Virus record (IMG/VR): IMGVR_UViG_3300031963_000251
Location: 1-47,658 of that record
Direction: 5' to 3' (one strand)
Length of the DNA stretch: 47,658 bases
Source: a virus
A model generated the notes under the pieces. It worked only from the letters and a program-made list of their open reading frames with translations, was not told the origin of the DNA and did no database searches. Below are positions 2,465-29,041 of the stretch, piece by piece (position 1 is the first letter of the stretch; every line of letters starts with the position of its first letter). Made by a program: the position numbers and the translations under genes.

Positions 2465-2480
2465 TAAAAAAATTAAATTT

Positions 2481-3329
2481 ATGAAAACACTTTTTATAAC
2501 CTCTATTTATTCAAATCTTTGGGGCACTGAGTTTGGCGGAAGACCTAGTAGAGAGTATCATTATAGGATAAGTCTTCAAAACATTTTGAATATGAATCCC
2601 ACAAAATGTGTTTGTTTCACTTCATCAGATGAAATAGAAAATCTAAAAAATGTATTCTATAATAATTTTAAAATGCCTCAAGAACAATTATCATTTGTAA
2701 TTTTTGATTTACACAATACCAAATATTTTGATGAGATTAGAAAATTAAAAAATTTGGAGGAGATGAAAAGAACCGATAGATGTTATGAAATTCAGTATAA
2801 TAAATTTATGTGGAAATATAACATAAATGAAATTTATAATTATGATAGGGTTTATTGGATTGACTCTGGATTATCTCATGGAGGTATTTTTCCTGAAAAA
2901 TACCAAAAAGATAATAGTCGAGAAGGTCATTATAAAATAAGTTTATTTAGTCAAAAATATTTAAACCATTTAAATCAATTAACTTCAGATAAGATTCTTT
3001 TATTATCTAAAAATAATGAAGGACAATTTTTTTGGTCGCAACAAATACCCCAACATTATTATAAAGAATTTGATAGGTCTAAACATATTATCGGAGGTCT
3101 TTTTGGGGGAACACCAAAAAAATTTTTAGAATTTTGTGATAAGTTTGAAACTTTATTAATACAATTATTAAGAAATGAAAATCAATTATATATGGAAGAA
3201 CTAATAATGTCTTGTCTATATTTTAATGAAAAAAATAATTTTACTTTATTGGAATTCGATGATTGGTATAAAAGAGAGCACCATAATGACCCTAATATAA
3301 AATATTTTTATAATATGTTTGAATTATGA
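2481..3329 (+). CDS. HtrL/YibB-like glycosyltransferase-fold protein
   Basis: 282 residues. The core YDRVYWIDSGLSHGGIFPE (121-139) with D128 is typical of the HtrL_YibB family, whose members sit in lipopolysaccharide or capsule gene clusters and have a GT-A-like fold. Supporting segments are an N-terminal strand LFITSIYSNLW and IIGGLFGGTPKKF further on. No membrane segment is visible. The final codons overlap the next gene (ATGA at 3326-3329), and the next gene begins with a related domain, so this looks like an old duplication. Biochemical activity is unproven for the family; a sugar transferase role is inferred from the fold and from the neighbours. Confidence 0.7.
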   Translation: MKTLFITSIYSNLWGTEFGGRPSREYHYRISLQNILNMNPTKCVCFTSSDEIENLKNVFYNNFKMPQEQLSFVIFDLHNTKYFDEIRKLKNLEEMKRTDRCYEIQYNKFMWKYNINEIYNYDRVYWIDSGLSHGGIFPEKYQKDNSREGHYKISLFSQKYLNHLNQLTSDKILLLSKNNEGQFFWSQQIPQHYYKEFDRSKHIIGGLFGGTPKKFLEFCDKFETLLIQLLRNENQLYMEELIMSCLYFNEKNNFTLLEFDDWYKREHHNDPNIKYFYNMFEL

Positions 3330-8275: not shown

Positions 8276-10843
8276 ATGGCAAATATAAAGATATCGGCGT
8301 TACCAAGTGTCCAACCAAGTGGTTATACGAATGACGATTTATTGGTAATAGTAAATTATGACGTTTCAAGTGGGACAACAAAGAATACACCTTTAAGTGG
8401 ATTAACTTCTTATATATTAAGTGGAGTAACATTTCCAACAGATTATCTTCCGTTAAGTGGTGGGACAGTTACAGGTGATACAATATTTAATCAAGGTTTA
8501 ACCGCAACAACAATATCCGCATCAACATACTTAGGACTACCTTTAGATGTTTATGTTACGGGGGGAACTTATTCTGGAGGAACAATAACGTTTACAAATA
8601 ATAGTGGTGGAACATTTCCTGTATCAGGAATAACTTCAAATGAGGGAAATCAATGGTTAATACCAACTGGAGATACCGTTACCGTTAATTCAAATTATCA
8701 ATATTTCATATATGGTGATATAATAGTTCAGGGTACTTTAATACTCGAAACTAATAGTCAGTTAGTAGTTGTTAATGGAGATGTTATAAATAGTGGAGGA
8801 ACAATCACAAATAACGGAACAATATCCGATATTGAAATTCCTTTATTTGATACGAAAGTTACTGGTGGAACGTATTCTGCCGGAACAATAACATTTACAA
8901 ATAATAGTGGGGGAACTTTCACGGTTACAGGAATTACCGCAACTGGCGGAGGAACATTTACTGGAGGAACGGTTAGTGGAGATACAATTTTTAGTAGTGG
9001 ATTAACCGCAACTACGATATCCGCATCAACATACTTAGGTTTGCCTTTAGATATATATGTGACCGGAGGTACATATAGTGCTAGTTCATCTACAATTATA
9101 TTTACAAATAATTCCGGTGGTACTTTTGATGTCACGGGAGTGACTGCTTCGGGTGGAGGAACATTTACAGGAGGAACTGTAACTGGGGAAACAATATTTC
9201 AAAGTGGGATAACCGCAACAACAATTTCAGCAACATCTTTAACAGTTGATTATATTGATTTTAATATAACCGCAAATACCACTCATCAGGAAGGAAGAAT
9301 TCATTGGAATGATGCTCTAAAAACTTTAGAGGTTGATACAGAAAATGCCGGTGTGCAACTAAAAGTGGGACATGAATTAGTTGTGAGAGTTAACAATCAG
9401 ACTGGTTCACCAATTCCAAAAGGAAGTGCGGTTTATATAAACGGAGAACAAGGACAAAGACCCACAATAACTTTGGCAAGTTTTACGGCAGATAGTACAT
9501 CCGCAGCAGTTGTTGGTCTAACAATGACTCAAATAAATAACAATAATAATGGTTATGTAATTGTTGGGGGTGTATTAGAAGGTCTTGACACCTCTTCTTA
9601 TACCGCAGGAACGCCATTGTATCTTTATACAGGAGGAACCTTAACTTCAACAAAGCCACAAGCCCCTGACCATGATGTTAGAATTGGTAAGGTAGTTGTT
9701 TCAAACGCAACAACAGGTTCTATATATGTTTCCATTCAAAATGGTTATGAATTAGATGAATTACATGATGCTAGAATTACAAATAAATCTGTTGGAGATT
9801 TATTAACAGTTAGTGGGTATAACGGATATGATTTATGGGTTAATTCAAAAACATTAAACGGTTCATATACAATAACCGGAGATACTACGATAGGTCAAGG
9901 ATTAACCGCGACAACAATATCGGGAGGAACAATATATGGTAGTGGTTTGGGTTTAATAAATATTCCTATTTCTGGTGTTACCAATCTACAAACATCATTA
10001 AATAATAAATTTGATATAACAGGTGGAACTATTAATGGAAATTTAACTGTAACCGGAAATACAAATTTACAAACATTTACTGCGGGAACAGGAACTATTA
10101 ACGGTAATTTAACTGTAACAGGAAATACTATTTTAACATCCGTTACAGGAAATAGTTTAAATATAACCGGAAATACAATAATATCTTCTTTTACAGGAGG
10201 TTCGGGAACAATTAACGGTAATTTAAATGTAACTGGAAATACCTCAATGACAGGAACATTAAATGTTACGGGTAATACAAACGTGAGAGCGTTTACAGGT
10301 ACTACGGGATATTTTTCTGGAACAGGTCAGAACGTGTTAACAGTTATTGGTTCAGGTAATAGCACATCGTCACCAATATTTTCGGTTATAGGAAATGGAA
10401 CTAGCGCGGAATTATTTAGTGTTACAGATTCTTTTTCAGGTTCGTTATTTTCGGTTAACGATATTTCAGGATTATCGATATTAGATGTTAACTCTGATAG
10501 TACAATTTTGATGGGTAATTATTTAGCTCCGTCATTAAACACAACAACAAGAACAAGTCTAACCGCAGGAACTACCACGGTTTATTCAATACCGACAAGT
10601 GCCTATACAGGAGCGTTTTTTGATTATACTTTAATTAGTACGGGAAGCACAGGTGCTAGAGCGGGAACGATAATGTCAATATGGAGTGGGTCAAGCTCTC
10701 AGTTTACTGAGGTTTCAACTAACGATATTGGTGTTACAACTGGAGTTACTTTCACAGTTGCGGTTTCAGGAAATAATGCGGTGTTAAGTAGTTCGGCAAC
10801 AACAACGGGTTGGACATTAAAAACAATAGTTAGAAGTATATGA
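8276..10843 (+). CDS. Repeat-built tail fibre protein
   Basis: 855 residues, Gly/Thr/Ser/Ile rich, with no Cys. The N-terminus (ANIKISALPSVQPSGYTNDD) resembles phage fibre attachment regions. Residues about 60-325 contain repeated modules: GDTIF..GLTATTISAS followed by TYLGLPLDVYVTGGTYS and TITFTNNSGGTF, occurring two to three times. The middle section (about 340-510) is a different domain containing GSAVYINGEQGQRPTI. Residues about 580-690 carry at least five NLTVTGNT/LNVTGNT repeats typical of trimeric beta-solenoid shafts. The C-terminal part (about 760-855) is a globular tip. It starts a four-base-overlap operon with the lectin genes (its TGA overlaps the ATG at 10840). Receptor binding is inferred. 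Confidence 0.75.
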   Translation: MANIKISALPSVQPSGYTNDDLLVIVNYDVSSGTTKNTPLSGLTSYILSGVTFPTDYLPLSGGTVTGDTIFNQGLTATTISASTYLGLPLDVYVTGGTYSGGTITFTNNSGGTFPVSGITSNEGNQWLIPTGDTVTVNSNYQYFIYGDIIVQGTLILETNSQLVVVNGDVINSGGTITNNGTISDIEIPLFDTKVTGGTYSAGTITFTNNSGGTFTVTGITATGGGTFTGGTVSGDTIFSSGLTATTISASTYLGLPLDIYVTGGTYSASSSTIIFTNNSGGTFDVTGVTASGGGTFTGGTVTGETIFQSGITATTISATSLTVDYIDFNITANTTHQEGRIHWNDALKTLEVDTENAGVQLKVGHELVVRVNNQTGSPIPKGSAVYINGEQGQRPTITLASFTADSTSAAVVGLTMTQINNNNNGYVIVGGVLEGLDTSSYTAGTPLYLYTGGTLTSTKPQAPDHDVRIGKVVVSNATTGSIYVSIQNGYELDELHDARITNKSVGDLLTVSGYNGYDLWVNSKTLNGSYTITGDTTIGQGLTATTISGGTIYGSGLGLINIPISGVTNLQTSLNNKFDITGGTINGNLTVTGNTNLQTFTAGTGTINGNLTVTGNTILTSVTGNSLNITGNTIISSFTGGSGTINGNLNVTGNTSMTGTLNVTGNTNVRAFTGTTGYFSGTGQNVLTVIGSGNSTSSPIFSVIGNGTSAELFSVTDSFSGSLFSVNDISGLSILDVNSDSTILMGNYLAPSLNTTTRTSLTAGTTTVYSIPTSAYTGAFFDYTLISTGSTGARAGTIMSIWSGSSSQFTEVSTNDIGVTTGVTFTVAVSGNNAVLSSSATTTGWTLKTIVRSI
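8450..9240 (+). repeat. Internal module repeats in the fibre gene
   Basis: Modules coding GLTATTISASTYLGLPL, VTGGTYS and TFTNNSGGTF recur around 8490-8640, 8850-8950 and 8995-9150, with a partial copy to about 9240. The nucleotide sequence is also similar, so the array can probably expand or contract by recombination. Confidence 0.75.
10021..10320 (+). repeat. Short shaft repeats (TVTGNT type) in the fibre gene
   Basis: At least five copies of a motif coding INGNLTVTGNT, SLNITGNT or GTLNVTGNT lie in tandem. A related copy (GTLSVTGNT) occurs at the N-terminus of the fibre gene at 13341, suggesting shared ancestry or compatible shafts. Confidence 0.7.
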
Positions 10844-11526
10844 GTTTTAGTTACGGACAAAAAATAGTAACAAATGGATTGGTTTTATATCTAGATGCCG
10901 CAAATATTAGGTCATACCCAAAAACCGGAAATACTTGGTATGATTTAAGTATTGGTACTAATACTGGTACTTTAAATAGTGGTTCAACATTTAATACCTC
11001 AAATGGTGGTAGTATTGTTTTTGATGGTACAGATGATAATGTAAATTGTGGAAACAATTCAATATTAGATGTTGGAAATAACATTACGGTAAACGCTTGG
11101 ATTTTTTTACCGAGTACTGGTGCGACAACAGGTTATAGACCGATAGTATCTAAAGTTGTTAGTGGAGCCACTGTTGGTTGGGAAATGGGTGTTAGTATTG
11201 GAAAATTAAGATGTGTCTTCAGGCCGACCTCAAATATTATAGACCTTACTGGACCTGATTTATCTATAGGTGTTTGGCAAATGTGTACATTTAGTTATGA
11301 TAACTTAACCACTAAGTTATATCTAAATGGGGTTTTAAGAACCTCAACATCAAGTGGTGGTCCTGTTATATTAGATTCATCACAACCATTTCAAATAGCG
11401 ACAAGAGGAATCGGAGGAAATACGTTTTTAGGTAGGATATCACAAGTCTCGATGTATAATCGAGCCTTATCTTCATCAGAAATTTTACAAAACTATAATT
11501 CGACAAAAGCGAGATTTCAATTATGA
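10840..11526 (+). CDS. LamG/concanavalin A-like lectin-domain protein 1
   Basis: 228 residues, essentially one LamG-type (Laminin_G_3) jelly-roll. Diagnostic parts: IVTNGLVLYLDAANIRSYP, TGNTWYDLS, then SIVFDGTDDNVNCG, NAWIFLPS, CTFSYDNLTTKLYLNGV, and the terminal helix-strand QVSMYNRALSSSEILQNYNS. Such domains bind carbohydrates or surface polymers. The start overlaps the stop of the fibre gene (ATGA), and its own stop overlaps the next ATG, so the lectins are translationally coupled to the fibre. It is the first of three tandem paralogues. Likely a virion adhesin or fibre-associated receptor-binding protein. Confidence 0.85.
   Translation: MSFSYGQKIVTNGLVLYLDAANIRSYPKTGNTWYDLSIGTNTGTLNSGSTFNTSNGGSIVFDGTDDNVNCGNNSILDVGNNITVNAWIFLPSTGATTGYRPIVSKVVSGATVGWEMGVSIGKLRCVFRPTSNIIDLTGPDLSIGVWQMCTFSYDNLTTKLYLNGVLRTSTSSGGPVILDSSQPFQIATRGIGGNTFLGRISQVSMYNRALSSSEILQNYNSTKARFQL
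10918..10948 (+). repeat. 31-bp direct repeat, copy 1
   Basis: A stretch of 31 bases beginning CCAAAAACCGGAAATACTTG is identical to 11604-11634 in the next lectin gene. It codes PKTGNTWYDL in both. Confidence 0.9.
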
Positions 11527-12281
11527 GCGGAAGTATTGTAAGTTCAAAAATAGTTACAAATGGATTAGTATTATACTTAGACGCGGTTAATACTCTTTCG
11601 TATCCAAAAACCGGAAATACTTGGTATGATTTAACAACCAATGGGTTTATTGGTCAACTAAACAACACCCCCTTATTTGTAACAACAGGTGGAACTTCTT
11701 TTTCTTTTGACGGTACCAATGAAAATGTTAATTTAGGTAATCTGTCATCACTTTCTTTTACTAGTGGGACATTTTCCGTTGAGATTTGGGTTAATGTTCC
11801 AAGTAGTTGGTCTGGACCTGCAAACATAAATCAATATCCTAATTTAATTAGTAAAGGAGCTAACGCTGGATGGGACACAAATGGGTGGTCATTACATTGT
11901 TTTAGAGGGGTGTTAAGTTCTGACCCCAAAGTTATTGGGTTAGGGATTAAAAATGGGTCTAATCTTGTTACATCATCCACACAAATAACATTAGAAAATA
12001 CAGATTTAGATAGATTCATATGTGTATCAGTAACTATGGATTTAACCTCTATTAAAATTTTTAAAAACGGAATACTTAATAAAACGGTAACATCTTTAAC
12101 TTCGCCATTAGGAAACCCTTTAGTAGGTCCTGCGGAAAATTCATCAAATGTTGTTATCGCAAGCGGTCCATCGTCACAATATTTTCCTGGTAAGATATCT
12201 AACATTAAATTATATGATAGAAAATTAAGTGATTCTGAAGTTTTACAAAATTATAACTCAACTAAAGTAAGATATATTTAA
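11523..12281 (+). CDS. LamG/concanavalin A-like lectin-domain protein 2
   Basis: 252 residues with the same architecture as its upstream neighbour: IVTNGLVLYLDAVNTLSYP, TGNTWYDLT, FSFDGTNENVNLGN, FSVEIWVNVPS, and the closing NIKLYDRKLSDSEVLQNYNS. It carries an insertion in the middle (NINQYPNLISKGANAGWDT) compared with copy 1. The start is set by the 4-base overlap with the preceding stop. It shares a perfect 31-base repeat with copy 1, indicating recent duplication or gene conversion. Role inferred: alternative or additional receptor-binding tip on the tail. Confidence 0.85.
   Translation: MSGSIVSSKIVTNGLVLYLDAVNTLSYPKTGNTWYDLTTNGFIGQLNNTPLFVTTGGTSFSFDGTNENVNLGNLSSLSFTSGTFSVEIWVNVPSSWSGPANINQYPNLISKGANAGWDTNGWSLHCFRGVLSSDPKVIGLGIKNGSNLVTSSTQITLENTDLDRFICVSVTMDLTSIKIFKNGILNKTVTSLTSPLGNPLVGPAENSSNVVIASGPSSQYFPGKISNIKLYDRKLSDSEVLQNYNSTKVRYI
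11604..11634 (+). repeat. 31-bp direct repeat, copy 2
   Basis: Identical to 10918-10948. Recombination between the two copies would delete 686 bases and fuse the lectin genes in frame, because the spacing is not a multiple of three but the genes lie in different frames at the same codon phase. Confidence 0.9.
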
Positions 12282-12286
12282 TTAAT

Positions 12287-12550
12287 ATGGAAACACAATT
12301 ATACGAGAATAGAAAATTTATGATATTTAATGTATCTGAATTAGAATTAATAGATTTTACACAAGTATGTGAAACTTCAATTGACACGGTTAGAAAAAGT
12401 GTTGATGGTGATAAAACATTTGTTAAATGGGACACCGAAGGAATTCCTTCATCAGTGGATAGTTTAACAACTAAAGAAGGTCCTTATACTTATGAAGAAA
12501 TTTTAAACATACTATCAACTTCAGAATGGACTGATGTAACAATAATATGA
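12287..12550 (+). CDS. Small unknown protein between lectin genes
   Basis: 87 residues, acidic, no recognised motif. It has a short N-terminal strand section (YENRKFMIFNVSELELIDF) and a C-terminal segment (YTYEEILNILSTSEWTDV). It starts 6 bases after the stop of lectin 2 and its TGA overlaps the ATG of lectin 3 by 4 bases, so it is part of the same polycistronic message. A chaperone or small accessory for the adjacent lectin fibres is possible by context alone. Confidence 0.6.
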   Translation: METQLYENRKFMIFNVSELELIDFTQVCETSIDTVRKSVDGDKTFVKWDTEGIPSSVDSLTTKEGPYTYEEILNILSTSEWTDVTII

Positions 12551-13290
12551 GTACAGTAGGAAATTGGCAAGGTCCAAAAATAGTTAAAGAGGAGTTAGTT
12601 TTATATTTAGATGCGGGTTCTCCCAATTCTTATTTTGATAAAACAAGCACAACTTGGAGAGATATTAGTGGATATGGTAACAACGCCACATTACTAAATG
12701 GGGTAACGTATAGTTCAAATAATGGCGGTGTTTTTATTTTTGACGGTACTGATGATGCGGCCAGAGTCTCACCAAACGCAATCTATAGAAATTTTACAAA
12801 TGCAACTTTTAGTATATGGTGTACATTCTCAACACTATCTACTAATAGTATCTATACTTTAATAAATAATGGAATCCAATCAACTGATAGTCATTTTTGG
12901 TTATATTATGATAATAGGACTTCATTACCATCTAATGTTAATAGAATAGGTTTTGAGTGGGGTAATGGCACTAATAGAACTGGTTTACTATCAACATCAA
13001 CTTTAATTCCTGTTTTAAATAATTGGTATAATATTGTGGCAACTTTTGATAACGGAACTTCAATAATTTATGTTAATGGAGTTGTGTTTGGTAGTGGTAC
13101 AACATTAGTAACAACAATAGCCGGAGTTGCCGCGGCTCAAATATATACAGGAGGTTATTTTTCCGCCGGTCCTTCGGGAATACAATTATCTTGGCCGGGA
13201 AATTTAAATCAACATTTAATATATAGAAAAACATTATCTCAATCAGAAGTTTTACAAAACTACAACGTAACAAAATATAGATATTTATAA
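12547..13290 (+). CDS. LamG/concanavalin A-like lectin-domain protein 3
   Basis: 247 residues, the most divergent of the three LamG paralogues: IVKEELVLYLDAGSPNSYF, TTWRDISGYGNNATLLNG, FIFDGTDDAARVS, FSIWCTFSTL, WYNIVATFDNGTSIIYVNG and the end NQHLIYRKTLSQSEVLQNYN. The GYGNNATLLNG and GTSIIYVNG elements match the LamG consensus better than in copies 1 and 2. Translation is coupled to the 87-residue protein by an ATGA overlap. It ends the operon begun at 8276. A carbohydrate-binding role is inferred from the fold. Confidence 0.85.
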   Translation: MSTVGNWQGPKIVKEELVLYLDAGSPNSYFDKTSTTWRDISGYGNNATLLNGVTYSSNNGGVFIFDGTDDAARVSPNAIYRNFTNATFSIWCTFSTLSTNSIYTLINNGIQSTDSHFWLYYDNRTSLPSNVNRIGFEWGNGTNRTGLLSTSTLIPVLNNWYNIVATFDNGTSIIYVNGVVFGSGTTLVTTIAGVAAAQIYTGGYFSAGPSGIQLSWPGNLNQHLIYRKTLSQSEVLQNYNVTKYRYL

Positions 13291-17919: not shown

Positions 17920-18299
17920 TCCAACTTAATACCATCGGACGAAATTATATACCAGTTGTTTTCAATTAAAACCATCTCAACACAAGCACCCTTACTTATA
18001 TTAAGTTCATCATAGTACTCATCTATCTTTCCGATAGATGGGGTTATGGTAACGTTTGTTAATACTTTAATAATAAGGTGGTCGGATTTAGAATTGTCTA
18101 AAACTAAATTACAATGTTCGGCATTTTTGATTAAAATTAAATCTTCACCATTTGTTTTATACGAAGATTCGGTTACGACTTTTTTTAAAAACTCAGGCAC
18201 TAACGGAATAAGTTTCTCAAAATATTCAATCTCTTTATGTTGTTTAATATTATAGGTTTTATCACCAATTTTTTTCCTAACCAATGTCGATTTTATCAT
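17916..18299 (-). CDS. Small structural protein resembling a fibre C-terminal domain
   Basis: 127 residues. The second half, CNLVLDNSKSDHLIIKVLTN then TPSIGKIDEYYDELNISKGA and VEMVLIENNWYIISSDG, follows the pattern of beta-rich tip domains ending many phage fibre and neck proteins, where strands are closed by W-Y-x-x-x-S-x-D-G. The N-terminal half is helical and charged. The start codon overlaps the stop of the preceding neck-like gene (4-base ATGA), so it is translated with it. Probably a neck or tail accessory; no precise function is recognised. It converges with the polymerase gene, sharing 4 bases. Confidence 0.6.
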   Translation of the reverse strand: MIKSTLVRKKIGDKTYNIKQHKEIEYFEKLIPLVPEFLKKVVTESSYKTNGEDLILIKNAEHCNLVLDNSKSDHLIIKVLTNVTITPSIGKIDEYYDELNISKGACVEMVLIENNWYIISSDGIKLD

Positions 18300-19417
18300 A
18301 TTACATAAATTTGTCTTGGCATTGCGGTAAATTTCTTTTGTTTGTTTAAGTTTTCCGCAAGTAACGCCTCACGCTCCATTACTTTTTCAGGTCTTAATCT
18401 TGTTAATCTACCCTCAGCACCTGTTAATTCCTCAATTAATTTAGTTTTTTCGTCTTTTGACTCAGTCGCTAAAGATTGGTAATCCATTGTTAATTCAGAA
18501 TCAGGAGTTTTTAAATTACCGCTATATTTTCCTCTTACCTTTGATAAGGTTTCTTTACAATATGCAATAAACCATCTTCTAACCCATTGTTGTGCTGGGT
18601 TATTAAGGTCTGCCCAACTAATCTTTTCAAACGGAACATCAGAAGGTAATCTAATAATATCAGGATTGTCCTTCAAACATTTATCTCTATCAGGACCATC
18701 AACCTCATAATACCAATACCAAACCTTACCTCTCATTAATGTAGAATTTCCAAAATCAAATTTACCACCTGGTACATTCATAAGGTGAATTGCCTTCTTT
18801 CCTTCAGGAAGTGCGGTAACTCTATATGTTAATTCTCCCGCAATAATTCTTCTTTGTATATTAATCTCTTGCATTCTTAATAACATATCAAAGGCAGGCA
18901 TCATAAAATATGAGCCCGAATAACCAAACTGAGAATAACCAGCGGGTCCTCCCAAACCAACACCACCTAATGCTCCAAATGTCCAAGGGTCAAATAATAA
19001 ATTATTTAACTCAGCCGGAGTAAACCATAATAATTCATTTAATTCTCTACCGGCAGGAATTTCGTACATTTGTTGTCCTTTAACTAATTGTATGTAATCT
19101 TTTTTAAGAACAGAATCTCCTCCCGCTTGCAATCCAACAATTTTCGAATACGCGTAAGTATATCTTTGTTCGTAATCTAAACTTTTTGTGGTAAATGCTT
19201 TAGATAAAGATTGAGTATCTAAATTTAAATTATAAAGTGATGTCCATTGAGATTCAATTAACCAATCTTGGACATATTGCGAATAATCGTCTATTGAGAA
19301 TTCTAATAGAGTGTCCATTTGTTCATCCTCTAATTCAATAGACCTTAAAGGAGCACCTAATAAGTGTCTAACTTTACGATATAAATCGCTTCTTTCTGGT
19401 TCTGCAATGATTGACAT
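18296..19417 (-). CDS. Putative neck/head-tail connector protein
   Basis: 373 residues. The N-terminus, DLYRKVRHLLGAPLRSIELE followed by DEQMDTLLEFSIDDYSQYV, is a helical connector-type signature (a VR..LG.P...IEL.DEQ.. pattern shared with head-tail connector proteins). Later features are QLVKGQQMYEIPAGRELNEL, a Gly/aromatic-rich loop (FGALGGVGLGGPAGYSQFGY), and AQQWVRRWFIAYCKETLSKV, a segment found in conserved neck proteins of T4-like viruses of aquatic bacteria. I would compare it first with gp13. It lies on the opposite strand from the rest of the tail genes but has the same TATTTATA box 16 bases upstream. Identity as gp13-like is inferred. Confidence 0.6.
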   Translation of the reverse strand: MSIIAEPERSDLYRKVRHLLGAPLRSIELEDEQMDTLLEFSIDDYSQYVQDWLIESQWTSLYNLNLDTQSLSKAFTTKSLDYEQRYTYAYSKIVGLQAGGDSVLKKDYIQLVKGQQMYEIPAGRELNELLWFTPAELNNLLFDPWTFGALGGVGLGGPAGYSQFGYSGSYFMMPAFDMLLRMQEINIQRRIIAGELTYRVTALPEGKKAIHLMNVPGGKFDFGNSTLMRGKVWYWYYEVDGPDRDKCLKDNPDIIRLPSDVPFEKISWADLNNPAQQWVRRWFIAYCKETLSKVRGKYSGNLKTPDSELTMDYQSLATESKDEKTKLIEELTGAEGRLTRLRPEKVMEREALLAENLNKQKKFTAMPRQIYVI

Positions 19418-19441: not shown

Positions 19442-20962
19442 TCAATCTATCTTAAAAACTAAATCACTCTTATTTAAGACAAAATTTCCTTCAACAATTT
19501 CGGTATTTGAATTATCAAACACATATATTTTTTTTCTATTTGTGAATATTAACCAATCTGTTTCATATTCCTTAACTCCACCAGTTTCGATAAAATTAAC
19601 TTTATCCCCGTCAAGTTTAATATCTTTAAAAGGTTTAACTTGAGCGGTCTTTTTACTTCCATTATAAATAATTTCACAATCAACTCCTTGTAATGTATCA
19701 CTAAGATTACCAATACTAGCAATCTTTTTAACATTATCGTTACCAAGTCTTTCTTTTAATTTTTTAACAACATAGTCTTCGTTAGTATCACCAAAACCAC
19801 CTGTCTTTTTAACGGTATCCATTAACGATTTAAATGTTGATGATTCGGGATTAAAGATTCTATTTTTAAAATAAGTTATTGCGTTTAATAATCTTGTAAG
19901 TTGTTCATCATTGTTTTCAACATTAAAGGTTATTGGTCTTTTCTTCATTGTGAAAAGAACTTTATTTATGTCGTTAACTAAGATACAAAAACAGGTATAA
20001 TTTGTATTAACTCTATTAAATATTGAACGACCGGGTTCTCCCATAAAATCGTATAAACCTCTTAATGTCCCTGGAGCATATTCATTTCTTTTATAATAGT
20101 TGTCAGGAAACACCTCAGACAAAGTTTTCTCAATCCATTCGTTAAAATCTTTCTTAATATTTGGGTACTTGTTAAATAACTCTCTATAAAAAGAGTTTTC
20201 TCTTGTACTACATTTTTCATCCACCGATTCCGACAAAATAATTCTTCTAAAATAATTTTCGTTTAATGTTGTTTTGGTTTTCATTTCATACATTTTGTTA
20301 ACAAATTCCCAATTAACAAAATCCCAAAAACCTTTTATATATTCATCCCTTTTATTTTGGTATTTTAAATAATAAGCATGTTCCCATAAATCTAAACCTA
20401 GTAAAGGATAACCACCTCTTTTAATAACATTCATTAGTGGGTTGTCTTGATTAGGAGTTGACATAATTTTTAATCTTCCCTTTTTGGTTAAAACAAGCCA
20501 CACCCATCCTGAACCAAATCTTTTTTGTGCAACATCTTCAAACCTTGTTTTAAAGTTTTTAAACGATTCAAAATGTTTATTTATTTTATCAAGTAGTTTA
20601 TCGGAAGGGTTTTGTTTTTTTGGGGATAACATCTTCCAAAATAAAGCGTGGTTAAAAGCTCCTCCCGCATTATTTCTAATAACTTTTGGAAATCTACTTA
20701 TTGATTTTACAATTTGTTCAAGTTCTAAATCACCATAGTCTTTTTTGGATAAAGCGTCATTCAATTTCTTAACATATCCTTTATAATGTTTGTTATAATG
20801 AATATCCATTGTTTCAGAATCAATGAATTGTTTTAAAGAAGAATAAGAATAAGGTAATTTTTCAATACCGATTTTTTTCATTTCGGTTAATAAGAAATTC
20901 TTACTTTCTGACTTTTGAATTTGTTCTAATAAAACTGATGTCTTTTCTAATATACTTTTCAC
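19442..20962 (-). CDS. Fe/Mn superoxide dismutase fused to a PD-(D/E)xK-like nuclease domain
   Basis: 506 residues, GTG start chosen because an in-frame TAA lies three codons upstream and a TATTTATT box ends 15 bases before it. Residues about 32-228 are an Fe/Mn superoxide dismutase: ligands H55 (DIHYNKHYKGYV), H105 (NNAGGAFNHALFW), D191 and H195 (LGLDLWEHAYYLKYQNKR), plus FGSGWVWLV and GFWDFVNWEFV. Residues about 385-480 look like a restriction-endonuclease fold: GDTNEDYVVKKLKERLG (E395), LQGVDCEI (D428), KTAQVKPF (Q441-x-K443), the QxK variant seen in Mrr-type nucleases. The link region 234-245 (NENYFRRIILSE) and the N-terminus (FLLTE) resemble processed phage head-targeting peptides. Each domain is clear to fair; the joint function is unknown. 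Confidence 0.85.
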   Translation of the reverse strand: MKSILEKTSVLLEQIQKSESKNFLLTEMKKIGIEKLPYSYSSLKQFIDSETMDIHYNKHYKGYVKKLNDALSKKDYGDLELEQIVKSISRFPKVIRNNAGGAFNHALFWKMLSPKKQNPSDKLLDKINKHFESFKNFKTRFEDVAQKRFGSGWVWLVLTKKGRLKIMSTPNQDNPLMNVIKRGGYPLLGLDLWEHAYYLKYQNKRDEYIKGFWDFVNWEFVNKMYEMKTKTTLNENYFRRIILSESVDEKCSTRENSFYRELFNKYPNIKKDFNEWIEKTLSEVFPDNYYKRNEYAPGTLRGLYDFMGEPGRSIFNRVNTNYTCFCILVNDINKVLFTMKKRPITFNVENNDEQLTRLLNAITYFKNRIFNPESSTFKSLMDTVKKTGGFGDTNEDYVVKKLKERLGNDNVKKIASIGNLSDTLQGVDCEIIYNGSKKTAQVKPFKDIKLDGDKVNFIETGGVKEYETDWLIFTNRKKIYVFDNSNTEIVEGNFVLNKSDLVFKID

Positions 20963-20985: not shown

Positions 20986-22749
20986 TTATGTTATTGAATT
21001 AATTTTATTCATAATCTGTTCTACGATATCACCTTTATCTAAATTGTCACCCATTACAGTTTCAATTACAGATTTCTTTGAGTTTACAATATCATATATT
21101 GACCCCTCAATAGTATTTTCAAATATTGGGTAATAAACAAGGACATTATTTTTTTGACCATATCTATACGCTCTATCTTCGGCTTGAGATAAATCACCAG
21201 GAACAAATGATAGGTCATTAATGATTACCGATTCCGCCGCGGTTAATGTTAACCCAACTCCTGCCGCCTTAACGTTACCAACAAATACTTTTATTTTATC
21301 GTTTTCTTGGAATTGGTCAACCGCATATTGTCTTTGTGGTTTAGAAGAACTTCCGTCTAATCTTACCGCTTGTTTACCAAAGTGGTCGGCAATACGATTT
21401 AAAGTATCTGTAAAGTTTGTGAATATGATAACTTTCTTTTCTTGGTCAATTATGTTTTGAGCAAGTTCAATAGTATGTTCTATTTTTTCTTCAGCAATTA
21501 CTTGTCTTACTTTCATAAGTTTTGTAAACTGAATTGTTAGCGATTTTGATTCCTCACCCTTTGTTCTATACCAATCAAAGTATTCTCCCATTAACCCTTC
21601 ATATAATTTAGACCTCAACCTTAAATAAACGGGGGTAATAATCTTTTCAGGTAAATCCAATACTTCCGTTTTCAATCTTCTTAATACTTGTTTTGAAGTT
21701 CTATCTCTTAGTTCTTCTAAGTTAGACGCTCCTGATACATTCCAAATCTTTCTGTTACCGGCTTTAAATTGATACCCTTGACAATATCTGATAGCGTAAG
21801 CCATCCAATTCTGAGCAACAGGACTTTCAATTAGTTGAAGTAAATTGAAATAATTCATTGGTCTGTTTGTCATTGGTGTTCCTGTTAATAACCAAAGAGT
21901 ATCGGCTTTTTTAGAAAAATGATTTACGAGTTTTGTTCTTTGAGCTTGGCCATTTTGAATGTAATGAGCCTCATCAATTATAATAAGTTCAGGTTTAAAC
22001 TTACCAATAAATGAATTATCTTTATCTTTTAAATCATAAAAGTTTTTAAGGATATCGTAATTAGTAATTACAAAATCGTGTTCTAATGAAAAGTTTTTAC
22101 CCTCACAAATAAAAATACTTCTGTCCGTATAGTTTCTAATCTCCCTTTCCCAATTAATCTTTAAAGATGCGGGACAGATAATTAAGACTTTTTTAGCATT
22201 TGTTTCTAAAGCGGCGATAGTCGCTGAGGTAGTTTTACCAACACCCATATCATCCGCCAATATAAATCTTTTAGAACCAACCAATTTTTCTATCGCCTCT
22301 TTTTGATGATTTAAGGGTGGTCTATGAGAATATTTAAAGTAGTCAATTTCGACCACTTTAGTTGTGTGAGTTTTTAGTAAGGCTCCTTTGGGTAACCAAA
22401 AATCGTGTATTGTTTCACCCGAAAAAACTTTACCCCAAATATGATAGGATTTTTCTTTTTCTGATAATAACTTCTCAACCCAAACTTCAGTTGGTATTTC
22501 AGTATATAATTTCTCATCGGCAATTTTCTTTGCGAAGTATGGGTCTAAATCGACCCACTTCTTAGCAACCCTTGGTGTTTTGTTGTGATTGTTAATTATA
22601 TATTCTGATTGTGAACGAGTGGGATAAAACTTTTTGTTAGTATCTTTTTGGTGTTTTAATTTTAATATAAAATTATTTGCACCATCATATGAATCCAATA
22701 AAGATAATGCGGTGTGTTCGATAAGATTATTTGTCAGACCTGAAGTCAC
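20986..22749 (-). CDS. SNF2-family DNA helicase/translocase
   Basis: 587 residues, GTG start (an in-frame TAA lies three codons upstream and no nearby ATG exists). Superfamily 2 motifs: I ADDMGVGKT (G169-T173), Ia IICPASLKINW, II IIIDEAH (D259-H262), III LLTGTP (288-292), V GVGLTLTAA and VI QAEDRAYRYGQ, with VIIFTNFTDTL at the start of the second RecA-like lobe. The QAEDRAYRYGQ box and arrangement are of the SNF2/HepA/SMARCAL1 type rather than UvsW. Residues 1-140 form an extra N-terminal domain of unknown role. It likely remodels forks or protein-DNA complexes during replication or recombination. It is the most upstream gene of the minus block, divergent from the neck gene at 22799. Confidence 0.92.
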   Translation of the reverse strand: MTSGLTNNLIEHTALSLLDSYDGANNFILKLKHQKDTNKKFYPTRSQSEYIINNHNKTPRVAKKWVDLDPYFAKKIADEKLYTEIPTEVWVEKLLSEKEKSYHIWGKVFSGETIHDFWLPKGALLKTHTTKVVEIDYFKYSHRPPLNHQKEAIEKLVGSKRFILADDMGVGKTTSATIAALETNAKKVLIICPASLKINWEREIRNYTDRSIFICEGKNFSLEHDFVITNYDILKNFYDLKDKDNSFIGKFKPELIIIDEAHYIQNGQAQRTKLVNHFSKKADTLWLLTGTPMTNRPMNYFNLLQLIESPVAQNWMAYAIRYCQGYQFKAGNRKIWNVSGASNLEELRDRTSKQVLRRLKTEVLDLPEKIITPVYLRLRSKLYEGLMGEYFDWYRTKGEESKSLTIQFTKLMKVRQVIAEEKIEHTIELAQNIIDQEKKVIIFTNFTDTLNRIADHFGKQAVRLDGSSSKPQRQYAVDQFQENDKIKVFVGNVKAAGVGLTLTAAESVIINDLSFVPGDLSQAEDRAYRYGQKNNVLVYYPIFENTIEGSIYDIVNSKKSVIETVMGDNLDKGDIVEQIMNKINSIT

Positions 22750-24646: not shown

Positions 24647-27600
24647 ATGGCATCTAACAGTAAAGTATTCGTATCTCCAGGAGTTTATACTTCTGAAGTT
24701 GATTTAAGTTTTGTAGCACAAAGTGTTGGTGTTACGACTTTAGGAATCGTTGGTGAAACCTTAAAAGGTCCGGCATTTGAGCCTATCTTCATTAGAAATT
24801 ATGATGAGTTTTCGTCATACTTTGGAGACACTTCACCTGAAAAATTTATAAACACACAAATCCCTAAATATGAGTCTGCATATATTGCTAAGGCTTATTT
24901 ACAACAATCAAATCAATTGTTTGTTACAAGAGTTTTAGGACTATCAGGATATGATGCGGGTCCTTCTTGGTCAATATCAACGAAAGCTAATGTTGACCCG
25001 TCAACTGTTACATTATGTTATAGTTCAGTAACAGATGTCAATATTTGTAGCGGACAAACAAATCCTTGTGACCCTTGTTGTGTTGATTATTTGGTTTTAC
25101 CAATATCGGTTGATTTTACAGGATGTACAAATACTCCTGATTCAATTGTTTTTAGTTCCACAATACCAGCAGAAATTTTAGCGAAATTAAATGTTCCTTA
25201 TGAAGAGTTTAATGGTTCTCAATCCAGTTTATCTGAAAATATGAAAACTCAGATATTCGATATTGTGAACGATGACGCATTTGGAACTACATTACCAAAA
25301 TTAGAAGATACTTCAATTTACTATTACGGTACAATTTCAGGAGACACTTATGAATCGTTAAAAACGACATTTACCGCAGAAACTAATGTATTTAATGTTG
25401 ATGATTTAAATTCTGATACGGCCAATTTTTCAGACCCAAATAACGACCCTTGGTATTATGCTTTATTTGATAATATTGGTGGAGGCGCTTATATGGGATA
25501 TTCATTTTGGACTGTTGTTACTGGTTTAACTGAAATAATTACCGCAACTACTACAACAACTAGTACAAGTACAACAACAACCACAACTAATCCTTGTAAC
25601 CCGACAACAACAACTACAACTTCAACAACAACAGTAAAACCTGTTAAGTGTTATACTGGAACTTTAATCGGACAAATTTTTGTTTATAAAGGAACTGCGT
25701 TTTTAGATTATGATGATTTAGTAATTGCAACTTTACGTTCAAGAGGTATTGCAACATATTCAACTGATGACGGTCCTGTTTACGAAGTTTCAGGTTTAAC
25801 TCAAGTTAGTATGGATTGTAGTGGTGGTTATTCCGCGGTAACTAAAAATCCATTCGCAACTTTTGGCGTTAATGTAACAAATAAAGATAATCAAAATTTC
25901 TTCTTTGAAACTTCTTTCTCAAATTCAGATTCACAATATCTTTCAAAAGTATTTGGGGTTACCAACTTTGGAAAACCTAGAAGTGAAGCTCCAATATTTG
26001 TAGAAGAAAATTTCCAAGCGTTATTAATATATGGTTGGAGAAAGGGATATATTAGAGGTTTAAGTTGTGATTTGACAGCATTACCTAACGCAAGACAAGG
26101 GGTCGACCCAACATCAATTGCTTGGTATTTAGAAAGATATCAATCACCAGTTTCTCCTTGGGTTGTTTCTGAACTAAGAGGTAATAAAGTTTTTAGATTA
26201 TTTAAATTTATGACAATTGCCGATGGGGACGCTGCTAACATAGAGGTTAAAATTTCTATAGCAAACATATCATTTAACAACGGTACTTTTGATATTATAG
26301 TTAGAGATTTCTTTGATAGTGACTCAGCTCCTGTTGTTTTAGAAAAATTCACAAATTGTAATATGAACCCTAATGATAACGCATTTATTGCTAAAAAAAT
26401 AGGTACATTAGATGGTGAATATCAATTAAACTCAAAATACATTATGGTAGAAATTAACGAGGATGCTCCTGTTGATTCATTACCTTGTGGTTTTGAGGGG
26501 TATCAATTTAGAGAATATGCGGGAGTTAGACCACCATTCCCAATTTATAAAACCAAATATGATTTCCCAGGTGAAGTTGTTTACAACCCTCCTTTTGGAA
26601 CGTCTTCAGGAAATGACAACGCTACAAGGTCTCCTGGTGACAATGTTAGAAGAACATATTTAGGTATTTCAGATACAGTAGGTTATGATGTGGATTTCTA
26701 TTCGTATAAAGGTAAACAATTACCGTTAAATATTTGTAATGATATTACCGGTGAAGATTGGTTTTATAAGACAAGAGGTTTCCATATGGATAAAAACGCT
26801 AGTAGTATTACAATAGGAGATAATTTTACAACAAGTGGAACTCCAGCGTTTTTTGTTGGTTCTGCAGAATTTACATCAGACCCACAATCAGAAAGTAATC
26901 CTTACTATAGATTATACGCTCGTAAATTTTCTTTATTATGTCATGGAGGTTTTGATGGATGGGATATATATAGAGAATCTAGAACAAATACAGATAGATA
27001 TGTATTAGGTCAAATAGGTTATAGAAACGGTGCTTGCGCATCTCCAAAATATCCTACAGCAACTGGTTGGGGTGCTTTCAAACAAATAACGGTTGGTGAT
27101 AACTCCGTTGATTGGGCTAATACCGATTATTACGCATATAAATTAGGACAAAGAACATTTGCAAATCCTGAAGCGGTTAATATTAACGTATTCGTAACTC
27201 CAGGTATTGATTATGTTAATCATTCAAATCTTGTGGAAGATGCGGTTGATATGATTGAAAACGATAGAGCGGATTCATTATATATCTGTACAACTCCTGA
27301 TTATAATATGTTTGTACCTACAGTTGGTGACCAATTAGATTTAATTTACCCACAAGAAGCGGTTGATAATTTGGATAATATTGGTTTAGATTCAAACTAC
27401 ACTGCAACATACTATCCTTGGGTATTAACAAGAGATACTGTTAATAACACTCAAGTTTACATTCCGGCAACCGCTGAGGTAACTAGAAATTTAGCGTTAA
27501 CTGACAATATTGCATTCCCTTGGTTCGCAGCTGCGGGTTATACAAGAGGTTTAGTAAACGGTATTAAGGCTCGTAAAAAGTTAACTCAAGAAGATAGAGA

Positions 27601-28012
27601 CACCTTGTATAATGGTAGAATTAACCCAATCGCAACCTTCTCTGATGTTGGTACGGTAATTTGGGGTAACAAAACTTTACAAATTAGACAGTCGGCTCTT
27701 GATAGAATCAATGTAAGAAGATTGTTGTTACAAGCTCGTAAATTGATTTCGGCAGTATCAGTTAGATTATTGTTTGAACAAAACGACCAAAAAGTAAGAC
27801 AAGATTTCTTAGACGCTGTTAACCCAATATTAGACGCTATTAGAAGAGATAGAGGTTTGTATGATTTCCGTGTAACGGTTTCTTCTGACCCAGCTGATTT
27901 GGATAGAAATCAAATGACGGGTAAGATTTATATCAAACCTACAAAATCGTTAGAATTTATCGACATTACGTTCTACATTACTCCGACCGGAGCGTCTTTC
28001 GAGAATATCTAA
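24647..28012 (+). CDS. Contractile tail sheath protein (gp18-like), enlarged, with Thr-rich insertion
   Basis: 1121 residues, against 659 in T4 gp18. The N-terminus KVFVSPGVYTSEVDLSFVAQ and TTLGIVGETLKGPAFEP is the hallmark of sheath proteins. The C-terminal third holds the conserved core: GTVIWGNKTLQ, SALDRINVRRLLLQARKLIS, DFLDAVNPILDAIRRDRGLY and KIYIKPTKSLEFIDITFYIT. The extra length lies in the middle, including a Cys-rich segment (NICSGQTNPCDPCC), then residues 299-329 made mostly of Thr (runs of five and six, with NPCNP between), and several further beta-rich insertions. Insertions in sheaths face outward, so the Thr tract is probably on the tail surface. It is followed by a strong terminator. 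Identification is firm; the glycosylation idea is inference. Confidence 0.95.
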   Translation: MASNSKVFVSPGVYTSEVDLSFVAQSVGVTTLGIVGETLKGPAFEPIFIRNYDEFSSYFGDTSPEKFINTQIPKYESAYIAKAYLQQSNQLFVTRVLGLSGYDAGPSWSISTKANVDPSTVTLCYSSVTDVNICSGQTNPCDPCCVDYLVLPISVDFTGCTNTPDSIVFSSTIPAEILAKLNVPYEEFNGSQSSLSENMKTQIFDIVNDDAFGTTLPKLEDTSIYYYGTISGDTYESLKTTFTAETNVFNVDDLNSDTANFSDPNNDPWYYALFDNIGGGAYMGYSFWTVVTGLTEIITATTTTTSTSTTTTTTNPCNPTTTTTTSTTTVKPVKCYTGTLIGQIFVYKGTAFLDYDDLVIATLRSRGIATYSTDDGPVYEVSGLTQVSMDCSGGYSAVTKNPFATFGVNVTNKDNQNFFFETSFSNSDSQYLSKVFGVTNFGKPRSEAPIFVEENFQALLIYGWRKGYIRGLSCDLTALPNARQGVDPTSIAWYLERYQSPVSPWVVSELRGNKVFRLFKFMTIADGDAANIEVKISIANISFNNGTFDIIVRDFFDSDSAPVVLEKFTNCNMNPNDNAFIAKKIGTLDGEYQLNSKYIMVEINEDAPVDSLPCGFEGYQFREYAGVRPPFPIYKTKYDFPGEVVYNPPFGTSSGNDNATRSPGDNVRRTYLGISDTVGYDVDFYSYKGKQLPLNICNDITGEDWFYKTRGFHMDKNASSITIGDNFTTSGTPAFFVGSAEFTSDPQSESNPYYRLYARKFSLLCHGGFDGWDIYRESRTNTDRYVLGQIGYRNGACASPKYPTATGWGAFKQITVGDNSVDWANTDYYAYKLGQRTFANPEAVNINVFVTPGIDYVNHSNLVEDAVDMIENDRADSLYICTTPDYNMFVPTVGDQLDLIYPQEAVDNLDNIGLDSNYTATYYPWVLTRDTVNNTQVYIPATAEVTRNLALTDNIAFPWFAAAGYTRGLVNGIKARKKLTQEDRDTLYNGRINPIATFSDVGTVIWGNKTLQIRQSALDRINVRRLLLQARKLISAVSVRLLFEQNDQKVRQDFLDAVNPILDAIRRDRGLYDFRVTVSSDPADLDRNQMTGKIYIKPTKSLEFIDITFYITPTGASFENI
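25541..25633 (+). repeat. In-frame ACN tract encoding Thr-rich insertion in the sheath
   Basis: ACA/ACT codons repeat with a few AGT/TCA codons, coding a stretch of about 31 residues with two blocks of six Thr separated by NPCNP. It resembles the stalk tract at 5463-5669 in both DNA and protein. Confidence 0.75.
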
Positions 28013-28058: not shown

Positions 28059-28067
28059 ATTATATGA

Positions 28068-28075
28068 TATTTATT
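28068..28075 (+). promoter_or_regulatory. Putative late promoter (TATTTATT box)
   Basis: TATTTATT, then AAT and the ATG at 28079. The arrangement is the same as at 22788-22801 (box, AAT, ATG), which supports 28079 rather than 28064 as the start of the next gene. Confidence 0.45.
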
Positions 28076-28078
28076 AAT

Positions 28079-29041
28079 ATGTCAATTAGAAATTTAATAA
28101 AAAATGTTTTACACGAAGAAGTGAAACAAAAAAAATTAAAATTATTTGCATTAGATTGGGATGATAATATCCTAAGAATGCCAACAAAATTATATGTGAA
28201 AACAGATGACGGAGACTCTGTGGGAATGTCAACTGAAGATTTTGCAATCTATAGAGAAAAGATTGGAAAAGAACCTTTTGAGTTTGAAGGTAAAACAATT
28301 GTCGGATTAGATAGTGACGCTTTTAGAGATTTTACTCGTTCTGAAAGTTTTTTAATTGATACTGAAAAGGCAATTAGAAAAAATAGAAAATCACCTAGTT
28401 TTGTATCTTTTAAAAAGGCGTTAATAAAAGCAAGTCCATTCTCAATAATAACCGCAAGAGGTCACGACCCTGAAATTATTAAACAAGGAGTTAAAGTTTT
28501 TATAGATTTAGTTTTATCTCCTGAAGATAAAGAAAGAATGATTAATAACATAAAAAATGTTTTAAAATTCGAGAATAGAGAAAAATTTTATAAAGTAGAC
28601 CAAAGTAGTGATGAACAATTATTAGACATTTACTTAGACTATAAAGGAAGATACTATCCAGTTTCTTCAAAAGAATTCGGAAGACAATTTAAATTAGACT
28701 CCGCAAAGGGGGCGTCAAGTCCTGAACAGTCTAAAAAAATAGCATTATCAGATTTCTTAGAACAAGTTTATGATGAGGTTGGTGATTTAATAAAAAGTGG
28801 TAAATACGGTCCTATCTCTTTAGGATTTTCAGATGATGACCCAGGAAATGTTAGAAGTATGGTTAATCATATACAAGACGAACTTTCAATGATGTATCCA
28901 GAAATAAAATTCATTGTTAAAGACACTTCTGAAGGAGGTATGAAAAAGATTATTATAAAAAGAGAAAGAGAATTAAATAAAGATTTAAATGAAAATTATA
29001 TAATTAATAAAATTAAAAAAGAATTATATAAATTAAAATAA
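28079..29041 (+). CDS. HAD-like phosphatase-fold protein
   Basis: 320 residues from the ATG at 28079 (an ATG five codons earlier, 28064, overlaps the promoter box and is less likely). HAD motifs: I KLFALDWDDNILRMP (D26, D28), II PFSIITARGHDPE (Thr as the motif II residue), IV SLGFSDDDPGN (acidic cluster). Between motifs I and II lies a cap-like insertion of about 90 residues. The family hydrolyses phosphate esters, including 3'-phosphates of nucleic acids; the substrate here cannot be read. The N-terminus SIRNLIKNVLHEE looks like a capsid-targeting peptide with an LxE-type cleavage site. It sits between the sheath and tube genes, an unusual place for an enzyme. An internal virion cargo role is inferred. 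Confidence 0.7.
   Translation: MSIRNLIKNVLHEEVKQKKLKLFALDWDDNILRMPTKLYVKTDDGDSVGMSTEDFAIYREKIGKEPFEFEGKTIVGLDSDAFRDFTRSESFLIDTEKAIRKNRKSPSFVSFKKALIKASPFSIITARGHDPEIIKQGVKVFIDLVLSPEDKERMINNIKNVLKFENREKFYKVDQSSDEQLLDIYLDYKGRYYPVSSKEFGRQFKLDSAKGASSPEQSKKIALSDFLEQVYDEVGDLIKSGKYGPISLGFSDDDPGNVRSMVNHIQDELSMMYPEIKFIVKDTSEGGMKKIIIKRERELNKDLNENYIINKIKKELYKLK

Follow-up and report, generated by a model that had tools for sequence, protein, structure and literature searches.

The internal head proteins of phage T4 (IPI-III and Alt) carry capsid-targeting sequences, are cut by the prohead protease gp21, and bring a variable cargo. T4-type prohead proteases have the consensus (L/I)xE, with a preference for L or I at its first position. 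According to parts of two papers, the head protease of T4 and of giant phages cuts on the C-terminal side of glutamate (an LIE example lies at gp21 residue 9), and short leaders direct cargo into T4-type heads (PMC9026906, PMC5694885). A section of the first paper describes T4 leader fusions with which even nucleases (EcoRI, staphylococcal nuclease) were packed into heads and then delivered to cells (PMC9026906). According to a review, superoxide dismutases (SODs) are among the virion-packaged proteins of large viruses, namely giant eukaryotic viruses in the Megavirus work that it cites (PMC9405923); by analogy this precedent makes a packaged viral SOD plausible, although it proves nothing for the phage described here. 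Another related system is found in Chen et al. 2022, part of which describes phages that encode ribosomal protein S21 (bS21) and have freshwater Bacteroidetes as predicted hosts and genomes of up to 331 kb (PMC9723584).

A superoxide dismutase and a nuclease in one reading frame

The locus considered here lies in a metagenomic virus record, and the window is the whole stretch that was analysed (47,658 nucleotides). It contains a gene with two modules:

19442..20962, (-): whole gene of the SOD-nuclease protein, a predicted polyprotein; 506 aa, GTG start, ORF without internal stop
20258..20881, (-): SOD module, residues 28-235 (208 aa), Mn-type; ligands H55, H105, D191 and H195, with Q172 and G100-G101
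19442..20227, (-): nuclease module, residues 246-506, predicted PD-(D/E)xK-type fold plus additional helices at its N-terminus; AlphaFold model, pLDDT 86.9
19778..19780, (-): E395, on the first core helix of the nuclease and predicted to bind metal; 51/51 nuclease domains
19679..19681, (-): D428, predicted metal ligand; 51/51 nuclease domains
19634..19642, (-): Q441-x-K443 motif (QVKPF); Q and K in 51/51 nuclease domains

Judged by sequence and model, this ORF joins a Mn-type SOD to a nuclease of the PD-(D/E)xK type whose site reads E-D-QxK. A scan of IMG/VR gave at least 597 relatives, and in 79 of the best 80 both parts are found in a single frame, while the remaining one starts at a contig end. 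Identity to the window protein is 52-58% in these best 80, save for four contigs at 97-100%. After the 79 full-length fusions were collapsed at 92-93% identity, 33 homologues were left, and all eight residues on which the two sites depend (H55, H105, D191, H195, E395, D428, Q441 and K443) are invariant in 33/33. The 51 nuclease domains come from 158 collapsed at the same level. The SOD ligands and the nuclease residues had been named in the earlier note, and both sets stand. Both halves appear to be under purifying selection, with a median dN/dS of 0.05 for the SOD (6 usable pairs) and 0.10 for the nuclease (10 pairs); the 10 pairs used were >80% identical, and 4 SOD values with dS >1.5 were excluded from the median. 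In a metagenomic record, two genes may in principle be joined by an error of assembly or sequencing, which the earlier note gave as a possible refutation. Here, the same fusion recurs in many contigs of different records, mostly at 52-58% identity, and an artefact can be ruled out as next to impossible.

The earlier note also knew of no such fusion, a view that does not hold given the many contigs and, very likely, a BFVD entry. A0A6J5L953, a protein of 501 aa from an uncultured Caudovirales phage, is named only 'superoxide dismutase', but its model has the nuclease domain (TM 0.90, 30% identity); the domain, the name and the length together make it very likely the same fusion. It is thus like the window protein in its nuclease domain and differs by its annotation as a superoxide dismutase alone. 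None of 50,697 named phage records covers 80% of the SOD-nuclease protein, and no description of the fusion was found in the titles and abstract starts of open-licence PMC literature. Very probably, then, the fusion was already in databases beforehand, judging by the model, without a description in the open papers searched. A separate BFVD entry, A0A8D9CCA0 (uncultured marine phage, 1113 aa), has the same nuclease domain (TM 0.75) and is maybe a polyprotein with other cargo.

The SOD module matches Pfam Sod_Fe_N over residues 34-113 (E=9e-22, 77.7 bits, cut-off 27) and Sod_Fe_C over residues 119-223 (E=3e-40, 137 bits, cut-off 20.9), and its best solved relative is the Deinococcus MnSOD (E=1e-60). 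Q172, G100 and G101 are invariant in 33/33 homologues, and we take them to be the second-shell Gln and the Gly-Gly of Mn-type enzymes. H59, Y63 and E194 are equally invariant (33/33); together with Q172 they presumably have gateway, dimer-bridge and Mn-type roles. By sequence the module is a Fe/Mn SOD of the Mn type, and it is predicted to be active. In a quick tree, the 16 phage SODs group together as a single clade, separate from the 66 bacterial rows (these come from 64 of 80 GTDB SOD loci, two of which gave two rows each). In a pattern scan, the 80 best bacterial relatives of the SOD include 65 from Bacteroidota. A source in Bacteroidota fits both the tree and these relatives, within a sample limited by the pattern scan.

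The nuclease half is far less easily recognised. It has no match in Pfam up to E=10, nothing significant in PHROG (best E=0.33), and its profile finds nothing better than E 0.099 among PDB sequences. Here the fold comes from an AlphaFold2 model of the C-terminal part, built on the 51-row alignment (mean pLDDT 86.9). In Foldseek, the leading matches are I-Ssp6803I and archaeal Hjc, with a probability of 0.95-1.00 and E 0.005-0.042 in the first four rows and no E <0.001. The VIA-align ranking begins with Hjc (Z 8.7, 104 residues, 3.5 A), NhoI (8.1), I-Ssp6803I (7.9) and SPARDA (7.9), then HhaI, DpnI, RecU and PvuII, where a best Z of 7-8 is common in models without a clear match. The aligned part is residues 142-261 of the nuclease model, and the preceding 140 residues are hardly tested by this comparison. 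The first 35 VIA-align rows are, by a classification that we assume, PD-(D/E)xK enzymes, and the invariant nuclease residues fall within helix one of the model core and the two strands that follow it. As these residues are placed as the fold needs, and the first 35 rows belong to that superfamily, the fold is accepted. The module is likely, from the model and with modest structural scores, a PD-(D/E)xK-type nuclease with a QxK site, and cleavage of DNA would be its expected activity. Rows within one Z unit count as tied, so that the ranking speaks for the superfamily and for neither a subfamily nor a substrate. The earlier note had proposed an Mrr-like QxK nuclease and suggested structure prediction of the C-terminus as a check. 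The nearest structures are indeed restriction-endonuclease-fold enzymes, at modest scores, and the superfamily is upheld by the model and the invariant residues. The 'Mrr-like' part is not confirmed: the top neighbours are Hjc, NhoI, I-Ssp6803I and SPARDA, which are compatible with Mrr, and Mrr is not named among the 50 VIA-align rows listed, an absence that is uninformative by itself.

Outside these contigs the nuclease is rare. Among named phages it occurs only in two records of one 735-kb uncultured phage, as a stand-alone protein of 290 aa, and a scan with this copy gave no relative in viral contigs. In cellular genome contigs there were 172 pattern matches to the nuclease, and none is a relative.

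Module joints and the head proteins of the relatives

The two modules are preceded and separated by short segments that close with a glutamate:

20882..20962, (-): N-terminal leader, residues 1-27, candidate capsid-targeting propeptide; low-confidence helix in the model, closing with invariant E27
20879..20890, (-): candidate prohead-protease site 1, L25-T-E27/M28; [LI]xE in 33/33, next residue M in 29 and A in 4
20255..20266, (-): candidate site 2, L233-N-E235/N236; [LIM]xE in 33/33 (M in 2), next residue S in 21/33
20225..20236, (-): candidate site 3, L243-S-E245/S246; [LI]xE in 32/33, next residue G in 22, S in 8, Q in 2

On the present evidence we lean, with some caution, towards a capsid-targeted two-cargo polyprotein of a huge, T4-related phage lineage. 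From sequence and computed models we infer the following course. Residues 1-27 would act as a capsid-targeting leader and carry the precursor into the prohead, where the phage's gp21-type protease would cut after E27, E235 and E245. These cuts would remove the leader and a short linker, so that the head would contain a complete Mn-type SOD (~208 aa) and a separate nuclease (~261 aa), to be ejected together with the phage DNA. Superoxide near the entering phage genome, or in the cell just infected, might then be cleared by the SOD, and DNA of the host or of a competitor might be cut there by the nuclease.

The joints carry much of this proposal. Across the whole alignment, [LIM]xE is kept in at least 30/33 rows only at E27, E194, E235 and E245; E194 lies in the SOD active site, and the others are the module joints. 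In a control in which all 20 residues took the place of E, within joint zones chosen by the analyst (20-33 and 227-250), only I33 appears besides the joint glutamates, and K35 falls just outside. Cuts after E27 and E235 would release residues 28-235, a SOD of about standard length (208 aa). M28 is found eight residues before LPY, approximately where a leaderless bacterial SOD begins: 6 of 25 listed bacterial SODs are short (201-204 aa) and have their M seven residues ahead of LPY, and the same spacing occurs in 13/69 bacterial SOD ORFs, a count in which the nearest upstream ATG was taken and SODs with a long N-terminus therefore get a misplaced start. In the full-length model, 27-45 and 231-248 are the only runs of at least three residues with pLDDT <50. 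Disorder at the joints is weakly supported by this, since the model is poor up to residue 100 (block means 36-64) and has a helix, itself of low confidence, running through 218-243. Residues 1-33 have a mean identity of 0.67 in the 33-row alignment.

It is also possible to read the protein as a bifunctional enzyme that stays uncut in the infected cell or the virion, with linker glutamates that are merely conserved. The single frame in 79 of the best 80 of at least 597 relatives and the two intact active sites agree with this. Linker positions 232 and 234 are 91% conserved as well (33 rows), so that the glutamate is not the sole constraint there. On the other hand, no such pattern other than [LIM]xE is conserved in the linker, much of which is variable (mean 0.60), and we consider a permanently joined enzyme unlikely.

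A cut in the prohead would call for head genes of the T4 kind, and these are found in the relatives. Of nine records of relatives, 4 have a gp21-type protease (PF03420) and 5 a capsid protein of the gp23 type, some of these being fragments. In G003, the head genes of the lineage occur in the same genome as a SOD-nuclease copy (L004) that is 100% identical to the window protein. The capsid protein has the motif LINE/A (cut before A) at residue 60 in 4/4 capsid sequences inspected, which is near the expected place given that the T4 gp23 propeptide has 65 residues, a length taken from a part of PMC5694885. Two further genes of the head cluster are of interest:

L103:10248-10964, (-): 238-aa protein between portal and protease, candidate core protein
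L103:7468-8457, (-), L113:18104-19060, (+), and loci L294-L326: head-cluster nuclease paralogue, in the scaffold-protease gap in G003

The 238-aa protein has 5 and 4 (L/I)xE(S/A/G) motifs in two genomes, a density 8-12x that of other proteins (98 in 56,222 residues; 188 in 87,338). Its motifs are LLES, LNES, INES and ITES, and LNES is the commonest form of site 2 (14/33). It has no Pfam match above cut-off and is a candidate gp67/gp68-like core protein. Homology of the paralogue to the nuclease module is supported by hhalign (probability 96.7, E 3e-10); this QxK nuclease has E, D and QxKPF, and in 33/35 loci found it is near capsid, scaffold, core or protease genes; G002 and G004 have no such paralogue at the head-cluster place, and it has no match in named phages.

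The cargo reading is favoured by the LxE conserved at the joints, the gp21 and gp23 homologues, the capsid LINE/A and the LxES-rich 238-aa protein, and also by M28 at the usual SOD start, the paralogue in the head cluster and the T4 precedent. Several points count against it. The residue after E27 is Met in 29/33, compared with Ala in the capsid protein, and site 1 is the least canonical of the three; at site 2, the cut would be followed by N, T, E or G in 12/33 homologues. Capsid protein, protease and nuclease paralogue have a motif density of only ~2x background. Leaders are weakly enriched in the genomes as a whole: [LI]xE near protein starts reaches 2.6% in G001 (residues 1-10) versus 0.9-1.8% from residue 31, and 1.9% versus 0.6-1.8% in G003. 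In addition, a nuclease that shares the head with the phage genome would have to be kept inactive. The earlier note had suggested a virion-packaged protein, and to this idea the protease-type joint sites, the T4-type head genes of relatives and the head-cluster paralogue lend indirect support.

It is worth noting that other proteins have comparable N-termini. In G001 (16/348 ORFs) and G003 (5/209), leaders like MKxxITExQ or ITEEEKxRI are found, e.g. in L109, L110 and L102, possibly a head-targeting family. In the window, two proteins without PHROG match (28064-29041 and 44590-45276) have the leader-like N-termini NLIKNVLHEE and RINNYINEQE, with acidic cut-like motifs.

The locus with and without the dismutase

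The gene is flanked by two conserved neighbours:

20986..22749, (-): SNF2-type helicase, upstream neighbour; upstream in 35/35 fused and 16/16 SOD-less loci examined
18296..19417, (-): head-tail adaptor, Ad2-like, downstream neighbour; phrog_211, E=3e-10

The adaptor is downstream in 34/35 fused loci (the 35th locus ends there) and in 16/16 SOD-less ones, and a polymerase gene lies beyond it in most loci that reach far enough. An extra ORF occurs between nuclease and adaptor in L009, L012, L073, L141 and L170. In L141 it is a further nuclease copy, 35% identical to the head-cluster copy, and in L009 it resembles a nuclease copy by eye. The ORFs of L012 (7532-8692, +), L073 (7536-8681, +) and L170 (4756-5877, +) are of no known kind and ~370-390 aa long.

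Elsewhere in the window, glycosyltransferase-type genes (GlcNAc, Glyco_transf_7C, HtrL_YibB) lie at its start (501-4996). At 10840-13290, three adjoining genes match the same PHROGs (24074, 8510, virion structural), the first with a Laminin_G_3 lectin-like domain, perhaps an adhesin cassette. The tail sheath protein at 24647-28012 (1121 aa) has its best sheath matches confined to the last 300 residues and carries a large N-terminal addition.

A T4-like late promoter before the operon (TATAAATA) was considered and set aside: one copy is found there, but the window holds 21 in total versus 14.3 expected, and 7/100 shuffles are as high. Nor is this octamer conserved upstream of the SNF2 gene (1/42 versus 1.7 expected), which also counts against the cargo reading.

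Orthologues without the SOD are found at the same locus. A query with the nuclease only gave 78 new loci, many on known contigs, of which 43 are fused and 35 have no SOD motif in the stretch covered (1 of the 35 is the contig end of a fusion). In a quick tree of 54 rows, made after collapse at 92-93% identity and with the contig ends L005 and L131 dropped, the 17 SOD-less proteins nest within the 37 fused ones and require four or more changes. These changes are read as losses because fused rows lie at the base of the tree and a leader and SOD-start remnant is found in L180 and L182-L186. This suggests that the SOD was lost at least four times at the locus, although the outgroups are long branches and the counts cannot separate gain from loss. 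The SOD-less nucleases keep E395, D428, Q441 and K443, and at this locus SOD-less proteins retain the leader, the LxE site or both. An LxE site ahead of the nuclease is kept in 14/17 SOD-less forms despite differing deletion ends, which again favours a head cargo; 3/17 have no LxE site by the criterion used and 6/17 are without the long leader, and both of these count against it. What stays constant at the locus is thus the nuclease, with the SOD as an optional addition, and the two lack obligate coupling, which counts against an uncut enzyme.

The same orthologues bear on an idea in the earlier note, that redox state controls the nuclease. In this version, the SOD module would regulate its partner; a kindred reading makes it a non-catalytic structural module. 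The physical linkage might suggest as much, and so might C251, an invariant Cys close to where the nuclease module begins. However, the metal ligands, H59, Y63 and Q172 are invariant, with a dN/dS of ~0.05, and the SOD-less nucleases keep C251 as well as all catalytic residues. Because same-locus relatives have a catalytically complete nuclease without any SOD, redox control is disfavoured, and a regulatory or structural role of the SOD is very improbable.

The surroundings of the gene raise one more alternative, in which the nuclease is a Holliday-junction or branch-resolving enzyme of packaging or recombination at the head or neck, with the SOD as passenger. T4 endonuclease VII plays such a branch-resolving role. 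Archaeal Hjc is the top structural neighbour (Z 8.7), the gene lies between those of the SNF2 helicase and the head-tail adaptor, and there are nuclease paralogues in the head cluster, all of which speak for this alternative. But restriction, homing and SPARDA nucleases lie within one Z unit of Hjc, the fold being silent on substrate, and the seeming extra copies at the locus in some relatives fit an arms-race role at least as well. We regard a resolvase as rather improbable, a little more so than an uncut enzyme.

Comparison with known systems

If the two-cargo head polyprotein is correct, a SOD would be injected at infection, a direct case of a phage that copes with oxidative stress, either within the virion or during the opening minutes of infection. 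Head loading with two enzymes from one precursor, which to our knowledge has otherwise been done only artificially, with T4, would then have a natural example. A vague phage annotation, 'superoxide dismutase', is turned into a checkable prediction of three exact cut positions. More tentatively, and with somewhat less than even chances, one may think of a cargo-polyprotein system in which one leader loads an enzyme chain separated by prohead-protease sites, modules like the SOD are added or dropped, and each infection injects an antioxidant and a nuclease.

The phages themselves are probably giant phages akin to the lake phages of Bacteroidota, a kinship drawn from the bS21 signature and not from a tree. 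Contigs of the relatives reach 322 kb, and a reverse-strand bS21 gene lies within the capsid/protease/portal cluster (PF01165 above cut-off in 2/2 tested, G003 and G004). According to parts of PMC9723584, the bS21 lake phages share a reverse-strand bS21 gene inside the head cluster, their genomes reach 331 kb where the contigs here reach 322 kb, and the main text of that paper has no 'superoxide', 'dismutase' or 'nuclease'.

Among the single modules, the SOD is closest to bacterial Mn-type enzymes: those of Deinococcus, Sphingobacterium and Bacillus (SodA), among the 50 structural matches listed, are 42-50% identical over ~195 residues and share all four ligands and Q172. Unlike them, the phage module is embedded between a leader and a nuclease. 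Stand-alone phage SODs (Vibrio phage 2.275.O, 189 aa; Pseudomonas phage PA5oct gp223, 182 aa) are of the Fe/Mn family and keep the ligand positions in the alignment, but they are without a nuclease, have 28-30% identity and a shortened helical region. The record of PA5oct gp223 was not used as proof of SOD packaging, its 'ESI-MS/MS' note being found on several metabolic genes too.

For the nuclease, one point of comparison is DREN of SPARDA. A part of PMC12205087 gives its catalytic residues as D41, Q60 and K62 and states that it resembles I-Ssp6803I. DREN/DUF4365 and I-Ssp6803I share the modelled fold with the phage nuclease, and Asp with Gln-x-Lys is an arrangement common to it and DREN. In contrast to such PD-(D/E)xK nucleases, the phage protein has ~140 extra residues ahead of the core, 12-18% identity and no Pfam or PHROG match.

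As a whole, the protein is most like T4 IPI-III and Alt in having a short leader that closes with an LxE-type site (a likeness in these traits), in a cargo that varies, and in belonging to a lineage whose members encode a T4-type protease and capsid protein. A gp21-processed head cargo is thus a known kind, and the new point is the architecture, with conserved LxE at the module joints. Unlike the T4 proteins, the predicted phage precursor has two enzymes with further candidate sites between them.
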